This document shows, in pieces, positions 18,849 to 35,458 of a stretch of 64,000 nt of DNA (positions are counted from its first letter, which is position 1; each line of letters opens with the position of its first letter). This stretch comes from Thermoleophilaceae bacterium (lineage in GTDB: Bacteria; Actinomycetota; Thermoleophilia; Solirubrobacterales; Thermoleophilaceae). The stretch lies in the NCBI GenBank assembly GCA_030447905.1, contig JAUJNZ010000008.1:44704-108703 (forward strand), in the 5' to 3' direction. Below the pieces are notes generated by a model. That model did not search any database, was not told the DNA's origin, and saw only the letters and a program-made list of their open reading frames with translations. The position numbers and the translations under genes were made by a program.

Positions 18849-20054
18849 ATGGCCGTCGCGACCACGATCACCGCCTACGCGGACAAGACCGAGGACCAGC
18901 GCGCGATCACCGAGATGGTGCACCAGTTCGTCGACGAGCAGGTGCTCCCGGTGGCCGGGCACCACGACCACGAGGACTCCTTTCCCGAGGACGTCGTCGA
19001 GCAGATGAAGGAGCTCGGCCTGTTCGGCGTGACCATCCCCGAGGAGTACGGCGGGATGGGCCTCGACCTGACGACCTACGCGATGATCGTCGAGGAGCTC
19101 TCGCGCGGGTGGATCTCGATCGCCGGTGTAGTCAACACCCACTTCATCGGCTCCTACCTGCTGATGAAGTTCGGCACCGACGACCAGAAGGAGCGCCTCC
19201 TCCCGCGCATGGTCACCGGCGAGCTCCGCGCCGCCTTCTCGCTGTCCGAGCCCGGGCTGGGCTCCGACGTGCAGGCGATCTCCACGCGCGCCCGGCGCGA
19301 CGGCGACGACTGGCTCATCAACGGGCAGAAGACGTGGGTCACCAACGGCCTGCTCTCGGGCGTCGTCTTCCTGCTCGCGAAGACCGATCCGGACGCGAGC
19401 CCTCCGTACAAGGGGATGACCTGCTTCATCACCGAGAAGGAGCCAGGCGCCTCGGAGGTGCCGGGTCTGACGGTCCCGCCCAAGATCAACAAGATGGGCT
19501 ACAAGGGCGTCGAGTCGACCGAGCTCGTCTACGAGGACTACCGCTGCCCGGCCGCGAAGGTGCTCGGAGGCGAGGAGCAGGGGCTCGGCCAGGGCTTCGG
19601 ACAGATGATGGACGCGCTCGAGGTCGGCCGCGTGAACGTCGCGGCCCGCGGCGTCGGCATCGCCCAGCGCGCGCTCGAGCTCGCCCTGCGCTACTCCCAG
19701 GAGCGAAAGACGTTCGGCAAGCAGATCGCCGACCACCAGGCGATCCAGTTCAAGCTCGCCGACATGGCCACCAAGGTCGAGGCCGCACGCCTGCTCATGC
19801 TCAAGTCCGCCCGCCTCAAGGACGCCGGCGAGCGCTCCGACCTCGAGGCCGGCATGGCCAAGCTGTATGCCTCCGAGGCCGGCAAGGAGGTCGTCGAGGA
19901 CTCCCTGCGCATCCACGGCGGCTACGGGTACTCGAAGGAGTACGAGATCGAGCGCCTGTACCGCGACGCGCCGCTGCTGCTGATCGGCGAGGGTACATCG
20001 GAGATCCAGCGCATGGTGATCGGGAAGAAGCTGCTGCAGCGGCACAAGGTCTGA
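18849..20054 (+). CDS. Acyl-CoA dehydrogenase
   Basis: This 401-residue flavoenzyme introduces the alpha-beta double bond in an acyl-CoA. Typical motifs are visible: EYGGMGLD, FSLSEPGLGSDVQAI (FAD/substrate loop), GQKTWVTNG, RVNVAARGVGIAQRALE, RKTFGKQIADHQ, RIHGGYGYSKEYEIER and the C-terminal IGEGTSEIQR. A GGAGG site precedes ATG 18849. The neighbours (acyl-CoA synthetase divergent, SCP2-like protein downstream) suggest one lipid-type degradation unit. Chain-length preference cannot be read from the sequence. Confidence 0.93.
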   Translation: MAVATTITAYADKTEDQRAITEMVHQFVDEQVLPVAGHHDHEDSFPEDVVEQMKELGLFGVTIPEEYGGMGLDLTTYAMIVEELSRGWISIAGVVNTHFIGSYLLMKFGTDDQKERLLPRMVTGELRAAFSLSEPGLGSDVQAISTRARRDGDDWLINGQKTWVTNGLLSGVVFLLAKTDPDASPPYKGMTCFITEKEPGASEVPGLTVPPKINKMGYKGVESTELVYEDYRCPAAKVLGGEEQGLGQGFGQMMDALEVGRVNVAARGVGIAQRALELALRYSQERKTFGKQIADHQAIQFKLADMATKVEAARLLMLKSARLKDAGERSDLEAGMAKLYASEAGKEVVEDSLRIHGGYGYSKEYEIERLYRDAPLLLIGEGTSEIQRMVIGKKLLQRHKV

Positions 20055-20069
20055 GTCGGCGTCCCCCTC

Positions 20070-20423
20070 ATGACCCAAGCCGACACAAAGACGCTCATCG
20101 AGCAGGCGGTGACGCGCTTCCAGGCAGATGTACCGGCTCTCAAGCCGCTGAAGCTGGTACTGCGGTTGGAGCTCCACGCGCGCGGCGACGTGCCCGTCTG
20201 GCGGGTTGAGCTCCCCGGCCCCACCGTCTCCAAGGATCCCGCGCGGGACGCGCGCGTCGACCTGTCCATCCCGCGCGTGTTCTTCAACGAGCTCGCGCGC
20301 GACGGTCGCCTGGCCGACTGGATCGAGGCCTACGAGCACGGGCACGTGCGCGTGTCGGGCGATCGCTCGATCATCCGGCTCGTCGGCAACGTGATCGAGC
20401 GCCAGCTCGCGCGGGCACGCTGA
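20070..20423 (+). CDS. SCP2-like sterol/lipid-binding domain protein
   Basis: The 117-residue protein is a single SCP2-type fold: an N-terminal helix, a beta sheet (LVLRLELHARG, VWRVELPG), then RVDLSIPRVFFNELARDGRLADWIEAYEHGHVRVSGD and a final amphipathic helix. Such domains bind hydrophobic ligands or acyl-CoAs. It starts 15 bases after the acyl-CoA dehydrogenase stop and is most likely co-transcribed, so it may carry that enzyme's substrate. Confidence 0.75.
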   Translation: MTQADTKTLIEQAVTRFQADVPALKPLKLVLRLELHARGDVPVWRVELPGPTVSKDPARDARVDLSIPRVFFNELARDGRLADWIEAYEHGHVRVSGDRSIIRLVGNVIERQLARAR

Positions 20424-21203: not shown

Positions 21204-21371
21204 GTGGTGGAGGGGCGGCGGGGCACGCCCGACAGCGTAGGCATCGCGACCGCGACGCCGCAGCAGTGGTCCGCGCTCGTCGAGGACAGCCGTCGCTCAA
21301 GTTCCGGCGGACGGTGGCCGATCTAGGGCACGACACCTACTACCCCCCGACGCCTTCCTCCCACTCTCGCC

Positions 21372-21659
21372 ATGGCCGCCCCGACGTCCACCCACTCCCT
21401 CCCCGAGGAGGAGCTCGACCGCTTCGCCTACGTCGCCTCGCACGACATGGCCGAGCCGCTGCGGATGGTCTCCGGGTACCTGGAACTGATACGCGACAGC
21501 TACGGGGACCGGCTCGACGCCGACTTCGAGGAGTTCATGCGACTCGCCATAGACGGCGTCGAGCGGATGCACGCCTACCTCGAGAGCCTGCGCACCCACT
21601 CGCGGATCGGTCGGCTCGAAAGCGATCGTCGACGAGCGCCTCGACCGCCGCGGAGGTGA
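21372..21659 (+). pseudogene. Histidine kinase remnant: HisKA dimerisation domain without ATPase domain
   Basis: The 95-residue frame encodes a dimerisation/phosphoacceptor domain with the H-box FAYVASHDMAEPLRMVSGYL. It ends at TGA 21657-21659 after RLESDRRRAPRPPRR, just where the linker to the catalytic ATPase domain should begin. No N, G1 or G2 box follows in any frame. The next frame opens at once with a truncated receiver. This looks like an internal deletion in a hybrid kinase gene. No ribosome binding site is seen before ATG 21372. Confidence 0.7.
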
Positions 21660-21904
21660 TCAGAAGCGTTCCGTCGCAGGGACCGGCGGGCCGGTTCGAC
21701 GTCGTCCTCGTTGATCGGCACGCGCCTCGGGTGGACGGCCTCGAGGTCCCCCGCTGGCTGACCACCTATCCCCCACAAGGCCGCGTGCCGGTCATCCTGC
21801 TGACCTCCGGAAGGGACCCGGAGGGGGCGGCCCGCCGCGTCACGGCGGCCGGTCACCTCATCAAGCCGCTACGTCAGTCTCGTCTTCGCGAGGCGCTCTC
21901 GTAG
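21656..21904 (+). pseudogene. Truncated response-regulator receiver domain
   Basis: The frame starts with GTG overlapping the stop of the kinase remnant (GTGA). It encodes only the second half of a receiver: phospho-acceptor Asp in RFDVVLVDRHAP, the Thr/Ser position in VILLTSG, and the conserved Lys in HLIKPLRQSRLREAL. The first beta strand and the acidic pair are missing. It ends at TAG 21902-21904, and the same frame then runs straight on into the next receiver, so the TAG looks like an acquired nonsense codon in one ancestral hybrid kinase. Confidence 0.6.
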
Positions 21905-21958
21905 GCCCTTGGGGGCGCATCGGCCGGCGGCCGCGATCGTCCTGCTTCGGCATCCGCG

Positions 21959-22732
21959 GTGGGTCGCAGGCCCGCGGGAGCCGACCCCGTCCTCGTCGCC
22001 GAGGACAATCCGACCAACCAGGCCGTCGCGGTCAGGTGGCTCGAGCGCCTGGGCTTCGAGGCGGAGGTCGCCAGCGACGGCGAGACGGCCCTCGAGGCGC
22101 TCGCCGCCCGGTCCTTCGCCGCTGTGCTCATGGACTGCCAGATGCCCCGCCTCGACGGCTACGAGGCGACGGGCGAGCTTCGCCGGCGCGAGGGCGACGA
22201 GCGGCGCACCCCCGTGATCGCCATGACCGCGCACGCCATGAAGGGAGACCGCGAGCGCTGCCTCGAGGCGGGCATGGACGACTACCTGGCGAAGCCGCTG
22301 CGCCCAGACACCCTGCGCACGATCCTCGAGCGCTGGGTCCCGGCCGCGGCCGCTGACGGCGGTGCGTCGCGGACCGAAGAGGACGGCGGCTGGGCGAACC
22401 CGGGTGGCGCGGGCGGGCAGCGACGACCGCGGTCTCCCCTTGTGAGCCCTGACACCACAGTCGGCGTCCCTCCGTGCACGCTCCTGCTGGTGGAGGACAA
22501 CCCCGGCGACGCCCGCCTCGTCCAGGAGCGTCTCAAGCGGGGCTGGACGCGCAACCTCGACGTCCACCACGCTCCGCGCCTCGACGAGGCCGTCGGTCAC
22601 CTCGCCGCGCACCGGACCGACTGCGTGACGAGACGAAACATCGCCTCCTCGGAGGGCGCACGCTCGAGCCTTCCAGAACGCGGCTCTGGACCGAGAGCGG
22701 TGTGGCGTGGTCGTGTCGACTTTGGAAGTTGA
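21959..22732 (+). pseudogene. Receiver domain plus truncated second receiver, tail of the broken hybrid kinase
   Basis: Residues about 8-125 form a complete receiver: acidic pair in VLVAEDNPTNQ, phospho-acceptor Asp in VLMDCQMPRLDG, Thr in AMTAHAM and Lys in YLAKPLR. A second receiver begins at about 175 (LLLVEDNPGDARLVQERL) but its similarity stops near AAHRTDCV (nt 22627), before its phospho-acceptor. The last 35 residues are unrelated. The first receiver could still fold and be phosphorylated if translated from GTG 21959. More likely it is dead sequence from the same gene as the two pieces upstream. Confidence 0.6.
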
Positions 22733-22858
22733 GCCTTCTTGCCGACGATAGTCGGAGCCGCGTGCCCCGAGCCCGTCGATGGATTGACGGTACCCCGGCG
22801 TGCGGGTAACAGGCATGTACTATTCCAGCAATCTCGACGCCCGACATCGAGCGATCAC

Positions 22859-23451
22859 GTGTCCGATCGATCCTCCGTCAAGAGGGACACGGCCATCGGA
22901 GTGCACGCCGCCGTCGAGGCGCTGACTGCCGAGTGGGACGCACTCCGAGATCGAGTAAACGCGGCCCCTTCCGGCGACCCGGATGGGTCGACGCGTGGAT
23001 CGAACCGTTCGGCGGACGCCCCCTCGCGCTGGTCGCACGCACCGACGGCTCGCTCGCGGGCACCGTTGCGCTCCTCAGGTGCTCGGCTGCTCGGGTGGTG
23101 ACCGCACACTGCCGCCACACGCCGCTGCAGGATGCGCTCGCCGGGGACGACCGCACGTGTGTCGCGTTGGCGGCCGCCCGCACGCACGAGTGCACAGGGC
23201 GCCTTGACCTGGGCCTCGTCGACGCTGAGGATGCGCCGCCCCCGGGCCTGCGTGCGGCGGCTGGCGAGGCGGATTCGACACCAAGTCCCGGCGCTTCGAC
23301 CCGGGGCCGCTCCCCGATCGAGCGAGCGTACCGCGAGCGCGTCCGTTTGCAGGCGTTTCGCCGCTCCGCAGGGGGCGCACTACAGACACCCGCCCGGCGT
23401 CACGGTCGTCTCCTGACCACGCGGACGCTTCGGTGCGGGCGGCTCACGTGA
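22859..23451 (+). pseudogene. FemAB-like (CelD-type) acyltransferase, frameshifted and short
   Basis: From GTG 22859 the protein reads VHAAVEALTAEWDALRDRV and then loses frame. Adding one C to the CCCC run at about 22970 joins it to FRRPGWVDAWIEPFGGRPLALVARTDG and on to a stop at 23451. The join reproduces the start of the FemAB-like proteins encoded at 33156 and 34379 (WxxL...F..W.W..AW). Even restored, it has about 197 residues, against about 360 for those relatives, so the acyltransferase half is missing. Its stop overlaps the next GTG (GTGA), which suggests it once led this operon. Confidence 0.5.
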
Positions 23452-24620
23452 GCGCTCTCGAGCCGCGATTGCTCGCCGGGCTCATCAGCTGCGCGGGGGG
23501 CTCAGAAAGCCGCCGACGCCGCTTCGGCGCCCGGCTCGACCTCGCCCGCTCGATGGGCTTTCGCGCCGCGCTCCGCAAGGCCCGCGAACGGGCGCCGAGC
23601 ATGCTGCCCGGGTACGTGAGGGACTCGGTCTACCGCGAGATCTGGACCGCCGCGGCCGCTCGGGCGGGAGCCGACTGCGAGGAGATCGGACCGGACGTCT
23701 TGAGGCTCGAGCGCGACGGAGCCTCGACCTTCGTCAGGCAGCAGGTGACGGCCCTTGACGACCCGGTCACGCTGGACCTGGCCCTCGACAAGCCGGCCGT
23801 GCATCGTCTCCTTCGGGGCGTCGGCGTACCGGTGCCCGAGCACGTCGAGTTCGGGTGGCGAGACCTCGCGCCGGCCGAACGCTTCCTCGCGACCGGCGGT
23901 GCGTGCGTGGTCAAGGCAGCCGACGGGACCGCGGGCGGCGAGGGCACCACCGCCGGGGTCGACACGCCCGTCCGGCTGCTGCGCGCGTGCCTTCACGCCG
24001 CTCGTTACGGGGAGCGACTGCTCATCGAGCGCCAGGCGCCCGGGCCCGTGTATCGGCTGCTCTTCCTCGACGGCGACCTGATCGACGTCATCCGGCATCT
24101 GCCCCCGCGGCTCGAGGGAGACGGTCGCGCCAGCGTCGAGGATCTCATCCGCGCCGAGAACGACCGGCGCCGGGCTGCCGGCGGAGCGGCGGGCCTGTCG
24201 CTGCTCGGCGTCGGGCTCGACACCGTCTTCGCGCTCGAGCGTCAGAGTCTCGCTCTGTCCTCGGTCGTACCTCGCGGCGAGGAGGTGACGATCCAGACGG
24301 TTACTAACGACAATCGCATCGAGGACACGACTACCGTACGTCACCCTCTCGAGGAGGAGCTGGTGTCGGCCGCCAGGCGCGCAGCCGCCGCGGTCGGGCT
24401 GCGACTGGCCGGCGTGGACGTCGTCACGCCGCACGCCGGCGTCTCGCTCGAGCGGGCAGGCGGAGTCGTGACCGAGGTCAACGGAACACCCGGCATCCAT
24501 CATCACTACCACGTGGCGGACCCTCACGAAGCCACTCACGTAGCGGTCCCGATCCTCGAGCGCGTGCTGGAGGCCGCGCGCGAGGCAGCTGCACACCGAC
24601 AAGAGCAGGAGGCGACATGA
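23448..24620 (+). CDS. ATP-grasp ligase, cyanophycin-synthetase-like
   Basis: It is predicted to form an amide or peptide bond by activating a carboxylate with ATP. The ATP-grasp fold shows DKPAVHRLLRGVGVPVPEHV, the nucleotide-binding CVVKAADGTAGGEGTT, ERQAPGPVYRLLFLDGDLIDVIRHLPP, and the metal-binding end VVTEVNGTPGIHHHYH. The order of motifs follows the C-terminal ATP-grasp part of CphA-type ligases. There is no Mur-ligase domain. Start GTG 23448 overlaps the preceding stop; an in-frame GTG at 23433 is possible. The stop overlaps the next start (ATGA). Substrates are unknown; the partner dioxygenase suggests a modified amino acid or small peptide. Confidence 0.75.
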   Translation: MSALEPRLLAGLISCAGGSESRRRRFGARLDLARSMGFRAALRKARERAPSMLPGYVRDSVYREIWTAAAARAGADCEEIGPDVLRLERDGASTFVRQQVTALDDPVTLDLALDKPAVHRLLRGVGVPVPEHVEFGWRDLAPAERFLATGGACVVKAADGTAGGEGTTAGVDTPVRLLRACLHAARYGERLLIERQAPGPVYRLLFLDGDLIDVIRHLPPRLEGDGRASVEDLIRAENDRRRAAGGAAGLSLLGVGLDTVFALERQSLALSSVVPRGEEVTIQTVTNDNRIEDTTTVRHPLEEELVSAARRAAAAVGLRLAGVDVVTPHAGVSLERAGGVVTEVNGTPGIHHHYHVADPHEATHVAVPILERVLEAAREAAAHRQEQEAT

Positions 24621-25654
24621 GAGTATTCAGCTTCGATCCGAGCGACTACCGCGATGCCTACGCGCGTGACGGCTACGTGCACATCTGCGCGGGACTCACG
24701 CCCGAGTTCCTCGCGTCGGTGGTCGAATATGCCGGGCGAGAGCTCGCCAGCCACAAGCTCGACCGCTTCGCGATCAAGGGAAAGAAGGAGCAGTCGCTCT
24801 ACGAGCTCCCCGATGACATCGACATCGGCGAGGTCTATGAGGTGGTGGCCGCCGTGGCCGGCCTCGACCGCGCGACGATCACGATGTCCGAGCGTCACAT
24901 CCAGATCTACGAGGCGACCGCGGCGCCGGAGCCGGCGGCGCACAAGGACCGGTACCCGTCGCAGGTCTCGGTCGGGCTCTCGATCCGGATCCCGGACGAA
25001 TCGCGGCTCGTGCTGTATCCCTACTCGCACCGCGAGACCAACCCGTTCAACACGAGCGCCGGACTCCGCCGCCACCTCCAGCCCGAGCAGCTGCCGGAGA
25101 ACGCGCTGCGGGGAGCGCGCGAGGTAGAGCTCGACGACCGCGAGGGCGACGTCATCATGTTCCCGGGGTCGACGACATGGCACCTCCGCCGCCGTGCCGC
25201 CGACGCGTTGAACCTCTATCTGAAGTTCAACGACTTCGGTTGTGATCCGCTCGGCGAGGATCCGTTCACCCAGCCGATTCGCGAGCGTACGCTCACGCTG
25301 GTCGAGTCCGGGGACGACGAGAAGCTCGACGGCCTCTCTCCGGTGCCCTCGCGCCGACTCGACACGGTCTCGCGTACCGCGACTCGCGACGGGTGGCGCG
25401 AGGTGCTCGAGGCACGCGTCTTCGGCGAGGAGCCCTTCGGGATCACCGAGATCCAGCAGGCGGCGCTGCTCTCGTGCGGGGGCGGCGAGAGCTTGGCGTC
25501 GTTGGCCCGGCGTATCGCGGGACCGGCGGGAGTCGCAGATGCGCGGCGCCAGATCCTGCGGCTGGCGAGCCAAGGGGCGATCGACCTGCTCGAGTGGGCG
25601 TCGCCGATGGCCACCGCTTCCGAGGGCACCGGAGGGCTCAGCGCGGCGATGTAG
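24617..25654 (+). CDS. Fe(II)/2-oxoglutarate dioxygenase-like protein with C-terminal winged-helix-like domain
   Basis: Residues 1-220 look like a phytanoyl-CoA-type oxygenase: SERHIQIYEA, the HxD motif in AAHKDRYPSQVSVGLSI, a strand rich in IRIPDESRLVLYPYSHRE, and the distal histidine in FPGSTTWHLRR. From about 255 to 345 there is a separate helical domain (TEIQQAALLSCGGGESLASLARRI) that resembles a winged helix. Translation is coupled to the ATP-grasp gene by an ATGA overlap. Hydroxylation of the ligase's substrate or product is a reasonable guess; no substrate can be named. Confidence 0.65.
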   Translation: MRVFSFDPSDYRDAYARDGYVHICAGLTPEFLASVVEYAGRELASHKLDRFAIKGKKEQSLYELPDDIDIGEVYEVVAAVAGLDRATITMSERHIQIYEATAAPEPAAHKDRYPSQVSVGLSIRIPDESRLVLYPYSHRETNPFNTSAGLRRHLQPEQLPENALRGAREVELDDREGDVIMFPGSTTWHLRRRAADALNLYLKFNDFGCDPLGEDPFTQPIRERTLTLVESGDDEKLDGLSPVPSRRLDTVSRTATRDGWREVLEARVFGEEPFGITEIQQAALLSCGGGESLASLARRIAGPAGVADARRQILRLASQGAIDLLEWASPMATASEGTGGLSAAM

Positions 25655-25675
25655 CGATCGCCGCTGGGTACGCGG

Positions 25676-26605
25676 TCACGCTGGGGGTGCGCCGCGCCGC
25701 GGCGAGGGGCGCGACGGCGCCTCGGCCGGGTCTCGGCCGGCCGGCGTCGCAGCAGCCCCTTCGATCGCGTCGAGCGTCGTACTGCCGGATGCGGGACGCT
25801 CGCCGCGCAGGCGCTCGCGCAGGTCGAGTACGGCCGGGTCACGAAGCCGCCGCCGCCCGGCGTCGGTGACGATCGGCTCGACCCCGGACTCGCGCAGTAG
25901 CGCGGCGCACGCGTCGAGCTCGTCGGCGCGTCGCTCGGCGTGGACCGCCAGGCCGGTGAGGACGCGCTCGACGAGCGCCGGAAAGGGAACTTCCTCGCCG
26001 GGGCCCGAGATCGATCGTGCCACCTCATGCTCCAGTCCGAAGGACCGGGCCGCGAGCATCGTTTCGAGCACCAGCGCGTCACGTCCCTTCATGAAGACGC
26101 TGCGCACCAGCTTCAGCCGCGCGGCGCGTCCGGCCTCTCCGGCGATGACGTCGATCCGCATCCGGGCCGGCCGCAGCAGCGCCGCGAGGCGTTCGGCGCC
26201 GTCCCCCGCGGCGACGATCGGCACCGACGCTCCGCTCGCCGCGACCGTCCCGAGGACCGCCGCATCCGCGTAGCTCACGCCGGCGCGCGCGGCAACTCGT
26301 GCCGCGTCCTGCTTTTGCTCGGGTGTGCTCGAGGCCAGGTCGGCCAGCAGCGTGCCGCTAGGTATGCGCCGCAGCACGTCCAGGGCCACGGTGGGGGCGA
26401 CGGCCGCCGGGAGCGCGCAGAGCACAGCGTCGGCGTCCTCGACCGCTTCCTGGAGTGAGGCGGCCGGCGTGGCGCCGGCGGCCGCGATGCGCTCGCCGAG
26501 ATCGGCGCGAGGCCGCGACCAGGCGACGACACGGTGCACCCGCGCGAGCGCTGGGGCCAGGGCGGCGCCGAGCTCGCCCACACCGATCAGCGCGACGTTC
26601 GTCAC
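25676..26605 (-). CDS. NAD(P)-binding dehydrogenase, 6-phosphogluconate-dehydrogenase-like with DUF1932
   Basis: The N-terminus is a Rossmann fold (VALIGVGELGAALAPAL) of the beta-hydroxyacid dehydrogenase type. VLCALPAAVAP and a glycine/serine-rich substrate loop (LGTVAASGASVPIVAAG) follow. An all-alpha C-terminal domain of the DUF1932 type (LKLVRSVFMKGRDALVLETML) keeps the catalytic-type lysine. GTG 26605 was chosen because it follows the upstream stop by five bases and begins the Rossmann strand. It is the last gene of a three-gene minus-strand operon and ends 21 bases from the convergent dioxygenase gene. Substrate unknown. Confidence 0.75.
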   Translation of the reverse strand: MTNVALIGVGELGAALAPALARVHRVVAWSRPRADLGERIAAAGATPAASLQEAVEDADAVLCALPAAVAPTVALDVLRRIPSGTLLADLASSTPEQKQDAARVAARAGVSYADAAVLGTVAASGASVPIVAAGDGAERLAALLRPARMRIDVIAGEAGRAARLKLVRSVFMKGRDALVLETMLAARSFGLEHEVARSISGPGEEVPFPALVERVLTGLAVHAERRADELDACAALLRESGVEPIVTDAGRRRLRDPAVLDLRERLRGERPASGSTTLDAIEGAAATPAGRDPAEAPSRPSPRRGAPPA

Positions 26606-26610
26606 GGTGC

Positions 26611-27813
26611 TCAGGTGCCGGCTCGTGCCAGGCCGGTCTGCCCCACGACCTTGCGCTGCGCCGCGCGGGTCTTCAGCCCGAGGCTCATCAGCGTGGGACC
26701 GGGATCCTCGAACGAGAGCAGCGGGAAGTGCTGTCGGTGGAGCAGGCTCAGAAGCCACCCGCGCACCGTCATCTCCCCCTCGACCCGGTAGTCGCGAAGT
26801 GCGCGGAGGTCCTCGATCGGATGCCACATCCGCACCCCCGTGCGGAAGCCCGTCAGCGGCTCCGACGGCAGGCCGACGGCGCGTCGATAGGCGATCAGCG
26901 CCATGTCGATCCCGGCTCGGCGAACGAGTTCGGTAGCCGCGGTCAGGCGGTGGTTGCACTCGATGATCTTGTACTCACCGTCGCGCGGATCGAGCTTGAA
27001 CTCGACGTTGCCGAGACCGCGCAGGCCGATGCCCTGGAAGAACCGCGAACCGAGCTCCGCGACGCGCGGATCCCAGACCGTCCGGTGGTAGGTCGCCAGG
27101 CCGAAGTGGGGGGGCCACTGGCGCAGCTTGTGCTTGCAGAGATGGAACAGGGGCTGGCCATGCTCGTCCAGGTAGCTGTAGTAGGAGAAGTACTGGTCGT
27201 CGCCGCCCGGGATGATCTCGGTGACGAGCATCTCGACCCCTAGCGCGAGGGTGGCCTCGAGCGCCGGCTCGAGCTCAGCGCGCTCGTTTACGAGCAGCAC
27301 CTTCTTACGGATCCCGTAGTGAGCGGCGAACTCGTGCGCTGCGCGCGGCTTGAGCGCACAGGGGTACTCGAACTCGGCGGCCACGCTCTCGGCGTCGGCC
27401 GGGGTGCGAACGGTCGCAGTGCGCGGCGTCGGCACGCCGGCCTGGCGCGACAGCTCGTAGGTCCGGTGCTTGTCGAGCATCGAGCGCAGGACGCCGTCGT
27501 CTGCCTCCACAGGCTGGTACCCGAGCTCGATCAGGCGCGGGCGGCGGTTCGCCACCAGCTCGAGGCCGTCGTCGTGGCAGGGAATCACGGCTCCGCGCCG
27601 TGGACCGCGATGCTCGAGCCAATCAAGGTAACGCTCGGCGACGCCCTTCCCGGCACCGACGTCGGCGAACTCGCGGCAGTGGCGAGAAGCGCGGACCGGG
27701 TCGTCTCCGGCACCTAGGGCGTAAACCGGCGCCCCCGCGCGCGACAGGCTGCGAGCGGCGGAGACCGCGATGCTCTCGCCGCCGAGCAGGATGGCTGGAG
27801 GAGGGACCGGCAA
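26611..27813 (-). CDS. ATP-grasp ligase, carboxylate-amine ligase type
   Basis: The protein starts with a pre-ATP-grasp fold (AILLGGESIAVSAARSLSRAG, VYALG, DPVRASRHC). It continues with DKHRTYELSRQAGVPTPRT, CALKPRAAHEFAAHYG, VTEIIPGGDDQYFSYYSYLD, and the metal-site GNVEFKLDPRDGEYKIIECNHR split around Glu and Asn ligands. This pattern matches predicted ATP-grasp ligases that couple a carboxylate to an amine. TTG 27813 lies one base beyond the upstream stop and has no strong ribosome binding site, so translation is probably coupled. A decayed copy of its N-terminus is found at 33018-33149. Confidence 0.75.
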   Translation of the reverse strand: MPVPPPAILLGGESIAVSAARSLSRAGAPVYALGAGDDPVRASRHCREFADVGAGKGVAERYLDWLEHRGPRRGAVIPCHDDGLELVANRRPRLIELGYQPVEADDGVLRSMLDKHRTYELSRQAGVPTPRTATVRTPADAESVAAEFEYPCALKPRAAHEFAAHYGIRKKVLLVNERAELEPALEATLALGVEMLVTEIIPGGDDQYFSYYSYLDEHGQPLFHLCKHKLRQWPPHFGLATYHRTVWDPRVAELGSRFFQGIGLRGLGNVEFKLDPRDGEYKIIECNHRLTAATELVRRAGIDMALIAYRRAVGLPSEPLTGFRTGVRMWHPIEDLRALRDYRVEGEMTVRGWLLSLLHRQHFPLLSFEDPGPTLMSLGLKTRAAQRKVVGQTGLARAGT

Positions 27814-27814
27814 G

Positions 27815-28549
27815 CTAGGGGGCCTCGGCGCTCTGCTCGAGCCCGGCCACGCCGCGCTCGTGCAGGAGCGCATCGACCCAGCCGTTGTTGAACTCACCGC
27901 GTGCCACCGCCGACGTGTAGTCCGACTCGGCGGCCGCCTTCGCGGTAAGGCGATCGAGGAGCTCATCGGAGATGTCGCGCGGTACGACCACGACGCCGTT
28001 GGCGTCACCGACGATCACGTCGCCCGGATTGACGACGATGCCGCCCGCCGAGATCGGGTAGTTGATCTCGCCGGGGCCGCGATGCAGCGGGCCGATCGGC
28101 GTGACCCCGCGCGCGAAGACCGGGAAGTCGCCGAGCGCTTGGATGCCGGGCAGGTCGCGGATCAGGCCGTCGACGAGGAATCCGGCGGCCCCGCGGTGAC
28201 GCGCCTTCGTCGAGACGAGGTCGCCGAGCACCGCGGTCATCGTCGAAGCGCTCGTGTCGACGACCACCACGTCCCCCGGCTCGAGGATGTCGAGGCTCTT
28301 GTGGACCATCAGGTTGTCGCCCGGGTAGACCTTCACGGTGCACGCGGGCCCGAGCAGCTTCATGTGCGGGTCCGTCAGCGCGCCGATCCGCGGCTCCATG
28401 GTGTATAGCCGGTTCATCTCGTCGGAGATCGCCGGCGTCTCGAAGGCATGGAACGCCGACACCGTCAACGGATCCGGACGCTCGATCTCGCAGCGGATCC
28501 GCAGACCGGGCCCCGGATGCATCTCCGCCGACTTGGGCTTGCCAACCAT
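27815..28549 (-). CDS. RraA-like / HMG-aldolase family protein
   Basis: The 244-residue protein has the RraA fold signature: TPAISDEMNRL, GPACTVKVYPGDNLMVH, PGDVVVVD, RHRGAAGFLVDGLIRDLPGI, then FARGVTP and VNPGDVIVGDANGVVVVP. The GxxxDG..RD arrangement carries the Arg and Asp used by the class II pyruvate aldolase/oxaloacetate decarboxylase members, so enzyme activity is plausible rather than RNase E inhibition. It leads an operon with the ATP-grasp ligase and dehydrogenase, and may supply or cleave an oxo-acid substrate for them. The oxo-acid role is inference. Confidence 0.75.
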   Translation of the reverse strand: MVGKPKSAEMHPGPGLRIRCEIERPDPLTVSAFHAFETPAISDEMNRLYTMEPRIGALTDPHMKLLGPACTVKVYPGDNLMVHKSLDILEPGDVVVVDTSASTMTAVLGDLVSTKARHRGAAGFLVDGLIRDLPGIQALGDFPVFARGVTPIGPLHRGPGEINYPISAGGIVVNPGDVIVGDANGVVVVPRDISDELLDRLTAKAAAESDYTSAVARGEFNNGWVDALLHERGVAGLEQSAEAP

Positions 28550-28607
28550 CTCTTTGTCTCCTCGTCGTCGCGCTGTGCCGGCTCGCGGCTAGTATCGGCA
28601 CCTCACG

Positions 28608-28636
28608 CAGGCGCCGAGAGCTTTTAAGGGCGCCTG
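28608..28636 (-). terminator. Candidate terminator after the ferredoxin-like gene
   Basis: CAGGCGCC (28608-28615) pairs with GGCGCCTG (28629-28636) around GAGAGCTTTTAAG. It lies 70 bases beyond the stop of the ferredoxin-like gene on the minus strand and upstream of the RraA-like operon, separating the two transcription units. Confidence 0.5.
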
Positions 28637-28706
28637 ACGCGCCCGCTGACGATAACGGCCGCCTGGCAGCAGGGTGGGAGCACGAGAGCGCTCCGCCTCC
28701 GAACGA

Positions 28707-28946
28707 TCAGGCGCGCTCGAGCGCCGTGCCGTCGTAGAGCTTGAGCACGCGCAGCTTGCCGGGCGGCGCACCGCGGATGCACAGCTCGCACAGCACGCAC
28801 TCGTCGAGGTTTTCCTCGACCACCTCGACATGTCCGTTGCGGTTCGCGTAGATGTCGACCGGGCAGGCATCGGCAAGTACCTGCGCCAGCTCGACGTCAT
28901 CGCGGACGTCCTCGGCGACCTCGACGTCGATGAACGTCCCGGGCAT
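28707..28946 (-). CDS. FixX-like ferredoxin-type iron-sulfur protein
   Basis: The 79-residue protein has Cys28 in ACPVDIY and Cys50, Cys53 and Cys56 in DECVLCELCIRG. The CxxCxxC group plus the distant CP cysteine are the four ligands of one [4Fe-4S] cluster in two-domain ferredoxins; the second cluster is absent. Its start overlaps the stop of the upstream SucD-like gene (ATGA), so it belongs to the same operon. An electron-transfer or structural role with the CoA-ligase pair has no described precedent that I know of; the partner is unknown. Confidence 0.7.
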   Translation of the reverse strand: MPGTFIDVEVAEDVRDDVELAQVLADACPVDIYANRNGHVEVVEENLDECVLCELCIRGAPPGKLRVLKLYDGTALERA

Positions 28947-29863
28947 CAGGCGTGCACCGCCTTTGCGAGCTTCGCCGAGACCAGATCCGGGATCTCCGAT
29001 ATCTCCTCGGCGACCGTGATCCCGGCGTCGTTCAGTCGCTTGATCTTCTCGGCGGCGGTGTCCGCCCTGCCCTCGACGATCGTGCCCGCGTGGCCGAAGC
29101 TCATGCCCGGCATATCGTCCATGAAGCGGCCGGCCATGAAGGCGACGATCGTCAGTTGCGAGTCGTTCTCGGTGACCCAGCGGGCGAGCTCTGCCTCCAT
29201 GCGCCCGCCCGGCTCCGAGTAGATGACGATGGCCTCGGTCTGGGGGTCGGCCTCGAACAGCGGCATCAACTCGGCGTAGGTCGAGCCGATGATCGCGTCG
29301 CCGCCGATCGAGATCGCCGTCGAGACGCCGAGGCCGGTGGCGGTGAGCGTCGAGGAGATCTCGGTGGTCATTCCGCCCGAGCGAGACATCACCCCGACCG
29401 GTCCCGGCTGGTAGGCCTTGGCGGCGTCGCGGGCCGGGCCGCCGATGCCGCCCATCTTGCCGACGCCCGGGCGGATCACCCCCAAGCAGTTGGGGCCGAT
29501 GACGCGGGCGCCGCGCATCGCCGCGAGCTCGACCATCTGGGCGACGTCGTAACGGGGGATGCGCTCGGTGACGACGACCACGAGCTTGACGCCCGCCTCG
29601 ATCGCCTCGAAGACCGCGTCTCGGGCGAAGGCGGGGGGGACGGTGACCACCGAGCCGTCGGGTACTTGGCCGGTGGCGTCGACGAGCTCGGCGACCGAGT
29701 CGAACACGGCGACGCCGTGGACCTCGCGCCCACGGCGGCCGGGGGTGACCCCACCGACGATGGTCGAGCCGTAGTCGAGGCACTCGCGCGTTAGGTTGAC
29801 CGCCTCGCGCCCGGTGATGCCCTGGACGATGAAGGTCGTCGACTCGTCGATCAGAACCGACAT
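28946..29863 (-). CDS. CoA ligase alpha subunit, probably malate-CoA ligase (SucD family)
   Basis: The 305-residue protein has the CoA-binding Rossmann fold (FIVQGITGREAVNLT, GGVTPGRRG, GPNCLGVIRPG). The phosphorylated histidine His258 sits in SFGHAGTIVEG, with SRSGGMTTEIS and SIGGDAIIGST loops. All are diagnostic of succinyl-CoA synthetase-type alpha subunits. Malate rather than succinate is inferred from the malyl-CoA lyase type gene at the head of the same operon. Succinyl-CoA or citryl-CoA synthetase remain possible. The stop overlaps the ferredoxin-like gene start. Confidence 0.8.
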   Translation of the reverse strand: MSVLIDESTTFIVQGITGREAVNLTRECLDYGSTIVGGVTPGRRGREVHGVAVFDSVAELVDATGQVPDGSVVTVPPAFARDAVFEAIEAGVKLVVVVTERIPRYDVAQMVELAAMRGARVIGPNCLGVIRPGVGKMGGIGGPARDAAKAYQPGPVGVMSRSGGMTTEISSTLTATGLGVSTAISIGGDAIIGSTYAELMPLFEADPQTEAIVIYSEPGGRMEAELARWVTENDSQLTIVAFMAGRFMDDMPGMSFGHAGTIVEGRADTAAEKIKRLNDAGITVAEEISEIPDLVSAKLAKAVHA

Positions 29864-31162
29864 CTAACCCTCCACCACCTCGCCTGTGCCCGAGAGGCGC
29901 TCGGCCGGTGGCAGCTCATCGCCGGCGCGCTCGCCGGGCAGCGGCTTTGCTCCGTTGGAGCCCGAGGAGACCTTCTCGACGGCGATTCGCGCGGCCTCGT
30001 GCATCGAGACAGAGCGGTCGCAGTACTCGACTCCGTAGCGGGCGAGGATCTTGAAGCCCTCCTCCTCCCAGGCGCCGGGGATGCGGAAGACGGCGATCTT
30101 CTCGGCGGGGTCGTGGCCGAGCTCGATGCAGGCCTTGATGACCCCGCGGGCGACGATGTCGACTCGGGTGTTCGAGACGATCGACATCATCACCGCGATC
30201 TTCTCGACACCGGGCTTCTGGAGCACGAGCTTCGTCAGGTTGGCCGCCTTGGAGACGCTCGGGTTGCCGCCGATCTCGCAGTAGTTGGCCGGTTGCCCGC
30301 CTTGGCGGCGGACGGCGTCGAACAGGGTCAGCGAGCCGCCGCCGGCGCCGATCACCAGACCAAGGTTGCCGTCGAACTCCGCCACGTTGCCGGCGACGCC
30401 GCGGTGGTCGACTGAGTCGATTCGCTCGCCCTCGATCTCGAACGGCGTCGCCTCGCGGGCCTCGCGCGTCTCGTCCTCGCCGACGCCGAGCTCTGCGAGC
30501 AGGGCCTTCTGGCGCGGACGGGCCTCGTTCTCCATGTCCATGTGCGCGTCGACGGCGACGAACGAGCCGTCCTCGAGCTTCGCGAGCGGGTTTATCTCGG
30601 CGAGGGTCATGTCGTACTTGACGAACAGCCGCGCGAGCGCCGAGAGGACCGGGGTAAGGCGCGTGAGGTCCCGCCCGGTGACGCCGGTCTGGGCGATCGC
30701 GTCCTTGGCGCGGAAGTCCATCTGGGGCAGAACTGTCGAGAAGTGGCCGCGGCCGATGTGCTCGGGGCGAGCCTCGGCGATCTCCTCGATGTCGATTCCG
30801 CCCATGTCCGAGAAAACGAAGGTCGGCAGCTTGCGCACGCCGTCGTAGATGACGCCCGCGTAGTACTCGTGGGCGATCGGGGCCCTGGCGGCGACGAGCA
30901 CGCCGCGCGGCACGTGACCGTTGATCTCGAGGCCGAGGATCTCGCGGGCGTGGGACTCGCACTCCTCAGGGCTATCGGCGAACCTGACTCCGCCGGCCTT
31001 CATACGCCCGCCGGTGAGGACCTGGGATTTGATGACCACCGGGCCGCCGACGTCCGCCGCGATCTTGCGGGCTTCCTCCGTTGTCGTCGCATGCCCCGAC
31101 TGGGTGATCGGGATCCGCTCGCGCCCGAGGATCCGGCGGGACTCGTACTCGAAAAGACGCAT
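29864..31162 (-). CDS. CoA ligase beta subunit, probably malate-CoA ligase (SucC family)
   Basis: The 432-residue ATP-grasp subunit pairs with the alpha subunit encoded immediately downstream. It shows MRLFEYESRRIL, VVIKSQVLTGGRMKAGGVRF, the metal-binding LAEINPLAKLEDG and VDAHMD, and the phosphohistidine-receiving loop LGLVIGAGGGSLTLFDAV followed by NYCEIGGNPS. It is slightly longer than usual because of a C-terminal tail rich in Gly, Pro and Glu. Context with the lyase points to malate thiokinase, which makes malyl-CoA from malate. Confidence 0.8.
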   Translation of the reverse strand: MRLFEYESRRILGRERIPITQSGHATTTEEARKIAADVGGPVVIKSQVLTGGRMKAGGVRFADSPEECESHAREILGLEINGHVPRGVLVAARAPIAHEYYAGVIYDGVRKLPTFVFSDMGGIDIEEIAEARPEHIGRGHFSTVLPQMDFRAKDAIAQTGVTGRDLTRLTPVLSALARLFVKYDMTLAEINPLAKLEDGSFVAVDAHMDMENEARPRQKALLAELGVGEDETREAREATPFEIEGERIDSVDHRGVAGNVAEFDGNLGLVIGAGGGSLTLFDAVRRQGGQPANYCEIGGNPSVSKAANLTKLVLQKPGVEKIAVMMSIVSNTRVDIVARGVIKACIELGHDPAEKIAVFRIPGAWEEEGFKILARYGVEYCDRSVSMHEAARIAVEKVSSGSNGAKPLPGERAGDELPPAERLSGTGEVVEG

Positions 31163-31245
31163 GGAGGAGGCGAGAATCTAGCGGGGGCCGTGGCCTACCC
31201 GGCTCCGGACGCGGAAGCCGCGCTAGGCCGCGCCCCGGTCACTGC

Positions 31246-32355
31246 TCACCTCGCCGTGGGCGCCGCCTCGCCCAGCTCCACGCCCGCCTCCTCGGGACTC
31301 TTGCCCTCGAGCCCGTACTCCTCGGCGAGGCCGGGGTCCTTGTGGGCGAGCATCTCGGCCAGGGAGACCATGACCTTGCACTGCTTCCAGGTGGCGTCGT
31401 CCTGCATCTTGCCGTCGATCATGTGCACCCCGCGGCCGTCCGGGATCGCCTCGATGACCTTCTTGGCGAACCGGACCTCCTCGGGGTCGGGGCTGAACAC
31501 CTTGCGCGCGACCTCGATCTGGCGTGGGTGGAGCGTCCAGGCGCCGACGCAACCCATCAGAAAGGCGGCGCGGAACTGGGCTTCGCAGCCGATGACGTCG
31601 CCGATGTCGCCGAACGGCCCGTAGAAGGGGAGGATCCCGGTGGCGGCGCAGGCGTCGACCATGCGGCCGATCGAGTAGTGCCAGAGGTCCTGCTGGGCGG
31701 ACCGCCGCGGCGCGTCGCCGTCGCGGGGATCGGGATCTTCGATCACGCGGTAGCCCGGGTGGCCGCCGCCGACGCGCGTCGTCTTCATGCGCCGCGAGGC
31801 GGCGAGGTCGGCGGGTCCGAAGCTCATCCCCTGCAGGCGCGGGCTCGCCGCCGCGATCTCCTCGAGGTTGGTCACCCCGAGCGCGGTCTCGAGGATGGCG
31901 TGCACGAGGATCGGCTTCGAGACGCCGTGCCGTGACTCGAGCTGGGCGAGCAGGCGGTCGACGTAGTGGATGTCCCATGCGCCCTCGACCTTGGGGACCA
32001 TGATCACCTCGAGGCGCTGGCCGAGCTCGCCGACGAGAAGCATGAGGTCGTCGAGCACCCACGGCGACTCGAGGGCGTTGACCCGCGTCCACAGCGCCGC
32101 CTCGCCGAAGTCGACCTCGCGGCCGAGCTTGACGAGCCCCTCGCGCGCGGCCACCTTGCGGTCGACCGGTACTGCGTCCTCGAGGTTGCCCAGGAGGACG
32201 TCGCACTGGCGGGCGAGCTCGGGGAGCTTGCCGGACATCTTCTCGTTCGAGGGGTCGAAGAAGTGGATCATTCGCGCCGGCTTGACGGGGATCTCGAGCG
32301 GGGGACAAGGGGCGCCGGCGGCGAGTGGGACGGCGAAGGTGCGGGGGTTGCGCAA
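31246..32355 (-). CDS. Malyl-CoA / beta-methylmalyl-CoA lyase-like enzyme (CitE/HpcH family)
   Basis: The 369-residue TIM-barrel lyase is predicted to cleave malyl-CoA to acetyl-CoA and glyoxylate, or to act in reverse. It has [10 protein letters not shown], the metal-site Glu/Asp of [41 protein letters not shown], the [10 protein letters not shown] strand and the closing [15 protein letters not shown] motif. TTG 32355 was chosen: AGGAG lies six bases upstream, whereas the longer open frame to 32535 runs through the divergent promoter. It heads the operon with the CoA-ligase pair; the 83-base gap before the next gene shows nothing notable. Confidence 0.82.
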
Positions 32356-32480
32356 GGGGTCTCCTGAAATCGATCGAGCGGGGCGCCGCGCGGCGGGCGC
32401 GCGGCGGGCGCCCCAAAGGTACCGACGGTTAGGCTTGACCGCCGCCTTTTCCCGCCCCCGACGAGATCTCCGAGGACCAG

Positions 32481-33017
32481 ATGACCGACACCGCCGCCCC
32501 CGCTCTCGAGACGAGCCAGGCCGCCCGCGAGGCATCCGGCGCGCGCCAGTACGGCCGCTACCTCGAGGAGTTCGAGGTCGGCGCCGTTTACAAGCACTGG
32601 CCGGCCAAGACCGTGACCGAGGCCGACGACCACCTCTTCTGCCTGATCACGATGAATCATCACCCGCTGCACATAAACGACGTCTACGCAGCGCACTCCC
32701 AGCAGGGCCGGAACGTCGTGGTGGGGCCGCTCGTCTACTCGTTGATGCTCGGGATGTCGGTGGGCGATGTCTCCGGCAAGGCGATCGCCAACCTGGCCAC
32801 GGAGGAGCTCGAGCACCCTGCCCCTCTGTTCCACGGCGACACGCTGTTCGCCGAGAGCGAGGTGCTCGAGGTGACGCCGTCGCGCTCAAAGCAGGATCGC
32901 GGAGTGGTGAAGGTTCGCACCGACGCGTACAAGCAGGACGGCACGCTCGTGGCGACCTTCCGGCGCAGTGTTCTCGTGCCGCGGCAAGCGGTGGGGAGCC
33001 CGGAGGAGGAAGCGTAG
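32481..33017 (+). CDS. MaoC-family hydratase
   Basis: The 178-residue hot-dog-fold protein has the MaoC core: [36 protein letters not shown] with the catalytic-type Asp and His region, [17 protein letters not shown], and [16 protein letters not shown]. It is divergent from the malyl-CoA lyase type gene (125-base shared promoter region). CitE-like lyase plus MaoC hydratase pairs are known in mesaconyl-CoA/methylmalyl-CoA and related short-chain CoA routes, so hydration of an enoyl-CoA in the same pathway is likely. The exact substrate is not visible. Confidence 0.8.
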
Positions 33018-33149
33018 GCGCTGACGGCGAAGCCACTCGAGGGATTGCTCCCGTCCCGTGGCGCCCGCGCCGACGTTCACGAAGTCCCCGCAATAGCGGG
33101 AGTGGCGAACAGGGTCGATCTCGTGCCCCAGCGCGTAAACGTGGACGAC
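33018..33149 (-). pseudogene. N-terminal fragment of a second ATP-grasp ligase
   Basis: On the minus strand this gap encodes VHVYALGHEIDPVRHSRYC followed by GDFVNVGAGATGREQSLEWLRR. That aligns without gaps to VYALGAGDDPVRASRHCREF-ADVGAG in the ATP-grasp ligase at 26611-27813. The fragment is only about 45 residues long, has no start codon and runs out where the MaoC gene begins. It sits directly downstream of a FemAB-like gene, the same gene order seen at 22859-24620, so it looks like the remains of a duplicated FemAB/ATP-grasp pair. Confidence 0.65.
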
Positions 33150-34378: not shown

Positions 34379-35458
34379 GTGACCGGCGTGCCGGAGCTCC
34401 GCCTCGAGTGGATCGTCGACGAGCACCGTTTTGCCGCCGTCGAGGCGGCATGGGACCTGCTCGCGGCCAAGGAACCGAGCCCCTTCGCGCGTCATGCGTG
34501 GTTCGCGCATTGGTGGCGGGCGTTCGCCGTGGACGCGTCGCTAAGAGTCTGCGTGCTCTGGGAGGGCGACACCCTGGTGGGAGCGGCTCCGCTTGTTGGC
34601 GAGTCGCGCAGGCTCACCGCCATGGTCAACGACCACACCCCGCTCTACGCGCCGTTCGCTCGCGACGAACGGGTGCTGGCGGCCCTCGCCGAGGCCGTGA
34701 TGGGGACGGGCTCCGGCGAGGTGGAGCTGGGTGCGCTTCCCTCCGACGGCGAGGTGCTCAGGCGCCTCCGACGGGCGAGCGACGAGGCGGGGCGCAGCGC
34801 GGTGGAGGAGCCCCAGCACGTCTCGCCTTTCGTCGACATGTCGGGCAGCTTCGAGCAGTTCAAGGCCGAGAGCAAGCCGCGCTGGGGAGCGCCGCTCGAG
34901 CGCTTTCGGCGCAAGATGGGACGCGAGCACGGCGCGACGTTCTCGCTCGCCGAGTCGCCCGTCGACCTCGACCGAGAGCTCGAGCGCGGTCTGCGCGTCG
35001 AGTCGAGCGGATGGAAGGGCCGAGCCGGGACCTCCATCCTCTCCCAGGCGAGCACCGCCTCCTTCTACCGCTCCGTCGCCCGCGCCTACCACGGCTTCGG
35101 AGAGCTGAAGCTGTCGGGGATCTCGCTGGACGGGCAGTTGGTGGCCTTCGACATGTCCCTGCTTCACAACAACCGGCTCTGGCTCCTCAAGACCGGCTTC
35201 GACGAGTCCTATCGCCGCCTCGCGCCCGGGCTCGTGCTACGGCTCTCGATCATCGAGCGGGGCTTCGAGCTCGGCCTGGCGGGACACGAGTTGCTAGGCG
35301 ACGACTCGGAGTGGAAGCGCAAGTTCGCCAACGGGCACCGGGCGCACTGTCGACTTCGGGCGTACCGGGCCCGACCCGCTCCGATGTTCCGCTATGCCTA
35401 CCGGCGCTGGACCCGCCCTCGCCTGCGGCGCATGTACCACCGCGTGCGAAGCCGTTGA
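34379..35458 (+). CDS. FemAB-like (CelD/BioF2 type) GNAT acyltransferase
   Basis: The 359-residue protein resembles the divergent neighbour: AAWDLLAAKEPSPFARHAWFAHWW, SKPRWGAPLERFRRKMGREHG, GISLDGQLVAFDMSLLHNNRLWLLKTGFDESYRRLAPG, and LLGDDSEWKRKFANG. GTG 34379 or 34388 can start it; neither has a strong ribosome binding site. Its 3' end overlaps the convergent glycosyltransferase gene by 61 bases. It is probably an acyl decoration enzyme of the polysaccharide locus. Confidence 0.78.
   Translation: MTGVPELRLEWIVDEHRFAAVEAAWDLLAAKEPSPFARHAWFAHWWRAFAVDASLRVCVLWEGDTLVGAAPLVGESRRLTAMVNDHTPLYAPFARDERVLAALAEAVMGTGSGEVELGALPSDGEVLRRLRRASDEAGRSAVEEPQHVSPFVDMSGSFEQFKAESKPRWGAPLERFRRKMGREHGATFSLAESPVDLDRELERGLRVESSGWKGRAGTSILSQASTASFYRSVARAYHGFGELKLSGISLDGQLVAFDMSLLHNNRLWLLKTGFDESYRRLAPGLVLRLSIIERGFELGLAGHELLGDDSEWKRKFANGHRAHCRLRAYRARPAPMFRYAYRRWTRPRLRRMYHRVRSR

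Follow-up and report, generated by a model that had tools for sequence, protein, structure and literature searches.

In the capsule of Campylobacter jejuni, glucuronic acid is amidated by the ATP-grasp enzyme Cj1438C (PMC11800379), and a Vibrio exopolysaccharide (EPS) carries alanine or serine amide-linked to galacturonic acid (PMC4663550). Fungal E-64 is made by an Fe/2-oxoglutarate (2OG) oxygenase, an ATP-grasp enzyme and an amide synthetase, without a non-ribosomal peptide synthetase (NRPS) (PMC12568646). In cyanophycin synthetase (CphA), residues H267, R309, N394 and R458 serve aspartate addition, R458 by binding the alpha-carboxylate of the incoming aspartate (PMC9427784). Here we describe a five-gene module in a stretch of 64,000 nucleotides, referred to as the window (G000:C13:44704-108703, from a 2.58-Mb genome; locus G000 in the comparisons). 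The module encodes two ATP-grasp ligases (AG1 and AG2), an RraA-like protein, a dehydrogenase and a putative oxygenase. These genes are linked across genomes, both ligases have intact catalytic residues, the loci lie in an EPS context, and two dehydrogenase families alternate among them. The features of the window are as follows.

23433..24620, plus strand: AG1, a stand-alone cyanophycin-synthetase-like ATP-grasp ligase (profile comparison with CphA in the PDB, relatives, residue mapping)
24617..25654, plus strand: putative Fe(II)/2OG oxygenase with a C-terminal winged helix (invariant HxD...H, six relatives)
25286..25594, plus strand: C-terminal domain of the putative oxygenase (aa 224-326), a winged helix resembling PqqD and RiPP recognition elements (RREs; RiPP, ribosomally synthesized and post-translationally modified peptide), from an AlphaFold2 (AF2) model and fold match
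25676..26605, minus strand: dehydrogenase of the 6-phosphogluconate dehydrogenase (6PGDH)/beta-hydroxyacid type, NAD_binding_2 plus DUF1932 (Pfam; relatives in G100 and G376)
26611..27813, minus strand: AG2, a CarB-like ATP-grasp ligase (Pfam, PDB, NCBIfam; relatives in six other module loci)
27815..28549, minus strand: RraA-like aldolase/decarboxylase of a cluster-specific subtype (PF03737, PDB 3noj, clade support 99/99)
22894..23271, plus strand: degraded CelD/FemAB-like GNAT remnant outside the conserved set (tblastn with the protein of 34379-35458)
21221..28703, no strand: 7.5-kb insertion relative to the congener G003, which carries the module; edges approximate (synteny)

The first-pass annotation had described two convergent operons separated by 21 bases, and every gene it named was found in its place. 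On the plus strand, the 3′ end of AG1 overlaps the oxygenase-like gene by 4 bp. The minus-strand genes for RraA, AG2 and the 6PGDH-like protein follow each other at distances of 1-5 bp, and positions 25655-25675 separate the two operons. AG1 starts either with GTG at 23433 or with ATG at 23553, and the TTG start of AG2 at 27813 was deduced from the N-termini of homologues. The labels RraA, 6PGDH and ATP-grasp (AG2) were supported by Pfam and the CphA-like nature of AG1 by profile comparison; '2OG dioxygenase' and 'FemAB remnant' are less firm. The region 22894-23271 shares 27% identity over 127 aa (E 1.3e-5, tblastn) with the GNAT encoded at 34379-35458. It contains no intact open reading frame (ORF) and is not conserved alongside the other five genes. 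FemAB, which had been listed in the plus-strand operon, was therefore rejected as a working component. GC composition showed no anomaly at the module.

To follow the distribution of the module, the oxygenase and AG1 were searched in 232 genomes of the order. The oxygenase was present in five, all of them within the eight having AG1 (P about 1e-8 under the assumption, not fully correct, that the genomes are independent). GTDB contigs supplied a sixth oxygenase locus, L007, which agrees with this pattern; the GTDB contig scan, which reached close relatives only, gave no further one. Outside the order, 399 genomes sampled from the class and 396 sampled from the phylum yielded no oxygenase, and no relatives were found in plasmids or viral contigs. 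Most of the genomes compared are draft assemblies, and the phylum was sampled in part. AG2 is present in all six oxygenase loci and the RraA subtype in five. G463, a closed chromosome from another class of the phylum, encodes RraA (67% identity), AG2 (48%) and AG1 (39%) without the oxygenase.

Gene order differs between the loci (ARRANGEMENTS). In G376 the operon reads RraA-AG2-6PGDH-AG1, with a convergent oxygenase gene close by, and in G405 the order is Wzz-RraA-AG2-AG1-oxygenase, all in the same direction. G100 carries an AG2-AG1 fusion in a single 781-aa ORF, and the oxygenase and RraA-6PGDH genes lie 22-31 kb away on the same contig. In G067, AG2 is fused to a broken AG1 beside an intact AG1, followed by RraA, an isocitrate/isopropylmalate dehydrogenase-family protein (Iso_dh), MaoC and the oxygenase. 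The 9.7-kb contig of G789 contains AG1, a truncated and frameshifted oxygenase gene, Iso_dh and AG2; RraA is not on this contig. G463 shows the order Iso_dh, RraA, AG2, AG1. As order is scrambled and content is kept, an inherited neighbourhood is insufficient to explain the set; persistence of content despite changes in order is what selection for joint function predicts. AG1, AG2, RraA and the oxygenase thus co-occur in related genomes, and the co-occurrence together with the rearranged yet complete loci rules out a chance neighbourhood, the outcome that would have spoken against the first-pass annotation. Its proposal of a single pathway is backed by the strict co-occurrence, the scrambled order, the AG2-AG1 fusion and the alternative dehydrogenase. 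A literature search found no description of the five-gene set in open-access papers.

All eleven contexts examined (seven module loci, three with AG1 only and one with AG2 only) adjoin or lie within polysaccharide genes, with Wzx, Wzy, Wzz or glycosyltransferase genes physically linked across genomes. In G405, RraA overlaps a Wzz-type gene by 4 bp, and in G463 the module is located between Wzy and Wzx plus a priming sugar transferase. EPS-type genes are found within about 10 kb in G376, G100, G067, G789 and the window. The AG1-only loci of G012, G803 and G769 and the AG2-only locus of G014 stand beside flippase, glycosyltransferase or chain-length genes. The large EPS locus of the window (33156-58470) encodes two CelD-like GNATs, a UDP-glucose/GDP-mannose dehydrogenase, an asparagine synthase, a flippase-like protein, Wzy, a Wzz-like protein and a priming sugar transferase.

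AG1 (395 aa) has no Pfam match. It matches cyanophycin synthase with E values of 8e-25 by sequence and 1e-44 by profile, confined to CphA residues 190-480, and scores 128 against cut-offs of 850-877 bits in the NCBIfam cyanophycin synthetase models. Its relatives are 36-51% identical. AG1 shares the ATP-grasp fold of the glutathione-synthetase-like G domain of CphA1 and retains equivalents of K220, E300, R309, the GDG motif, E450, N452 and H460, so that carboxylate activation for amide formation is expected. The Lys and Glu ligands of ATP and the E-x-N metal site (K220, E300, E450 and N452 equivalents) are invariant wherever covered, as in other ATP-grasp enzymes. In contrast to CphA1, in which the G domain is followed by a Mur-ligase-like M domain, AG1 has neither an N domain nor a Mur-ligase domain and is encoded in EPS loci. 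The residue set for aspartate addition is incomplete: R309 is kept in all members compared and N394 in most, H267 is replaced by Gly or Ala, and the R458 position is His in eight members and Leu in G463. Because the ATP, metal and acyl-phosphate residues are kept while H267 is lost and R458 is changed to His, AG1 should activate a carboxylate but use an amine other than that of CphA.

AG2 matches CPSase_L_D2 (Pfam, E 4e-9) and contains an E-x-N metal site within an IIECNHR motif, which identifies it as a second ATP-grasp protein. It scores below every NCBIfam equivalog cut-off. At the border of the EPS locus, a 42-aa stretch on the minus strand (33018-33143) shares 50% identity with the N-terminal portion of AG2 (E 3e-6), apparently what is left of another AG2 copy.

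The RraA-like protein matches PF03737 (E 6.6e-44) and PDB 3noj (E 4e-28 over 199 residues), and falls below the NCBIfam equivalog cut-off with 139.8 versus 179 bits. An Arg-Asp pair is catalytic in RraA-like aldolases. Both this pair and the PGDN-H motif of 3noj, a 4-carboxy-4-hydroxy-2-oxoadipate (CHA)/4-hydroxy-4-methyl-2-oxoglutarate (HMG) aldolase, are retained. Fold family and Arg-Asp pair agree with the HMG/CHA aldolases, and aldolase activity is predicted. Unlike the 3noj enzyme, module RraA belongs to a clade of its own (support 99/99; 63-71% identity across loci) and stands in what would be a biosynthetic context. Among 101 relatives, the subtype occurs in exactly three, which are those with a full-length oxygenase match. 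It is absent from module-less relatives, whose best RraA reaches 43% or less.

The 6PGDH-like protein was recognized by its NAD-binding domain (7e-14) and DUF1932 (6e-9) in Pfam. Dehydrogenases of this type are found in G000, G100 and G376, the G100 and G376 relatives being 47-50% identical, and in the RraA tree these three loci group together with support values of 96/93. Iso_dh takes this place in G067, G789 and G463, with copies that are 51-56% alike; the G067 protein is below all NCBIfam equivalog cut-offs. No match to the module 6PGDH was found anywhere in the G067 and G789 genomes. We read this pattern, seen in only six loci, as two families that may substitute for each other at one step. 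Alternation of two unrelated families would narrow the chemistry to an NAD-dependent oxidation of a beta-hydroxy acid.

For the oxygenase-like protein, sequence comparison with Pfam, NCBIfam and the PDB gave no match. Its assignment is based on the HxD...H facial triad of Fe(II)/2OG oxygenases (H109, D111 and H189; codons 24941-24949 and 25181-25183), which is invariant in all six relatives with 79-80 residues between first and last His. AlphaFold models of the core (232 and 345 aa) reached a pLDDT (per-residue confidence) of about 50 or less and were too poor to inform on the fold. That fold searches with them matched no 2OG oxygenase consequently says nothing about the core.

Taken together, the reading we favour, with nearly even chances of being right, is that the module makes an amide-linked, aldol-derived group and attaches it to a surface polysaccharide. 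RraA would make or trim a small hydroxy/oxo di- or tricarboxylic acid through pyruvate aldol chemistry, and the beta-hydroxyacid dehydrogenase of either type would set the oxidation state of this acid, possibly with decarboxylation. AG2 and AG1 would convert carboxylates to acyl phosphates and couple them, through two amide bonds, to amines that are either amino acids or amino sugars. Where present, the oxygenase-like protein may oxidize the product, perhaps with its winged helix gripping the substrate. The product would then be placed on an EPS repeat unit. Like the C-terminal amidoligase of Cj1438, the ligases would form ATP-dependent amide bonds within a polysaccharide locus (PMC11800379). 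In contrast, Cj1438 is a single, TupA-like ATP-grasp ligase using serinol or ethanolamine phosphate as amine without an aldolase or oxygenase partner, and the likeness drawn here is one of function. If the favoured reading is true, bacteria would have a new way of putting amide-linked groups other than sugars on their surface polymers, and the module would include a new RraA subtype used in biosynthesis instead of catabolism and a CphA-like ligase with altered amine specificity. Genome mining by NRPS, polyketide synthase (PKS) or RiPP signature rules may well miss such a set. A more far-reaching version is possible, if doubtful: an undescribed class of polysaccharide decoration, in which an aldol-derived hydroxy-polycarboxylic acid built by an RraA-family enzyme and one or the other of two unrelated dehydrogenases receives two ATP-grasp amide bonds and is oxidized by a member of a new oxygenase family whose C-terminus is a recognition domain, the cassette moving between actinobacterial lineages into EPS loci.

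Three observations weigh against a polysaccharide substituent. No glycosyltransferase or sugar-acceptor gene is co-inherited with the five genes. The EPS locus of the window is present at the same site in the module-less G004 and G014. Since module-less relatives share this locus, its proximity in the window is weak on its own, and it is the other genomes that carry the argument. Finally, the module has a UDP-sugar dehydrogenase gene nearby in the window, but none was seen at the remaining module loci, so that a uronic acid in particular is not supported as the target of amidation.

The missing glycosyltransferase would equally suit the main alternative, a free NRPS-independent pseudopeptide metabolite, in which the ligases join the aldol-derived acid to amino acids or amines, the oxygenase tailors the product and proximity to EPS genes reflects a shared mobile neighbourhood. 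The rare, accessory distribution of the module fits as well. E-64 follows the same logic, combining an Fe/2OG oxygenase with two successive amide-forming enzymes, one of them ATP-grasp, and no NRPS (PMC12568646). E-64 differs in being a fungal, free metabolite, with an amide bond synthetase as second ligase and without RraA or an EPS link. Against a free metabolite stand the EPS-type genes in eleven of eleven contexts, including the Wzz overlap and the Wzy/Wzx insertion. Nor does the set have a conserved companion gene for transport, regulation or resistance. We consider it rather unlikely. Of the first-pass proposal of a small peptide-like molecule built without an NRPS, the NRPS-free assembly is consistent with the gene content and the E-64 precedent (PMC12568646). 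As for a small peptide-like product, the position of all eleven contexts at polysaccharide genes points to a polysaccharide substituent instead.

The C-terminal domain of the oxygenase-like protein raised the question of a RiPP-like modification of a peptide or protein, with the winged helix as RRE and the ligases acting on the peptide. Its AF2 model (pLDDT about 60-92, mostly >70) matched MibB residues 182-285 with a VIA Z of 9.1 (2.0 Å over 85 residues), and NisB, TbtB, ThcOx and PqqD were matched as well (Z 6.4-9.1 across known RREs). However, Z values were equal for winged helices outside RiPP systems, namely the C-termini of GdmN and NovN, with PKMT matched too and ribosomal oxygenases (NO66) less well. 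The match points to a common fold, which is not a function. Moreover, the domain has no PqqD match in Pfam, and tblastx of the intergenic regions of six loci revealed no small ORF that is conserved among them, a comparison that very short or diverse precursors could escape. RraA and the dehydrogenases suit small acids better, and the oxygenase is missing from G463. A RiPP-like system is accordingly very unlikely.

The genes flanking the module belong to a family-conserved CoA-ester locus (28707-33017 and 18849-20423) encoding a small ferredoxin-like protein, a succinyl/malate-CoA-ligase-like pair, an HpcH/HpaI lyase, a MaoC hydratase, an acyl-CoA dehydrogenase and an SCP2-like protein. The best NCBIfam matches of the lyase and of MaoC are RipC and RipB-like, respectively, both below cut-off, and the locus is possibly a malyl/citramalyl-CoA pathway. 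It adjoins the module in the window, and MaoC and acyl-CoA dehydrogenase genes are adjacent in G067, as expected if the five genes were a catabolic or anaplerotic unit tied to it. In G003, however, only about 20 bp separate the ferredoxin-like stop from the Fpg/Nei-like start, where the window has 7.5 kb with the module. The CoA-ester genes occur without the module in G003, G004, G006 and G017 (congeners and family members), which places the genes for the succinyl-CoA-ligase-like proteins, the lyase and MaoC outside the module. In G376, G100 and G463 the module is not flanked by genes of this kind, and a pair of ligases that spend ATP is not what catabolism would suggest. The empty site of G003 and synteny in the other three genomes thus largely refute this link, to which we give a slim chance. 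A search for mobile-element ends found no convincing direct repeats at the edges of the insertion. The best explanation of the comparisons is that the module is accessory, co-inherited and mobile between rare actinobacterial genomes. The part of the insertion that separates the module from the Fpg/Nei-like gene contains, in broken frames, fragments resembling a histidine kinase and response-regulator receiver domains (21372-22732).

That AG1 and AG2 together make a storage polymer like cyanophycin has next to no prospect: the CphA ATP-grasp domain is nearest to AG1, but the Mur-ligase domain and the defining residues at positions 267 and 458 are missing, and cyanophycin synthesis was rejected on these grounds.

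Two AG1 relatives are worth recording separately. The one in G769 (L067:1-5901) lies in a different context, near a PqqD protein (PF05402, E 5e-15) and glycosyltransferases, and this locus may hold a peptide-related system. In G718 (L126:1139-3739), an AG1-like ATP-grasp (31%) is contained in an 866-aa protein encoded beside a CapA-like capsule-synthesis gene, possibly a poly-amino-acid capsule system.

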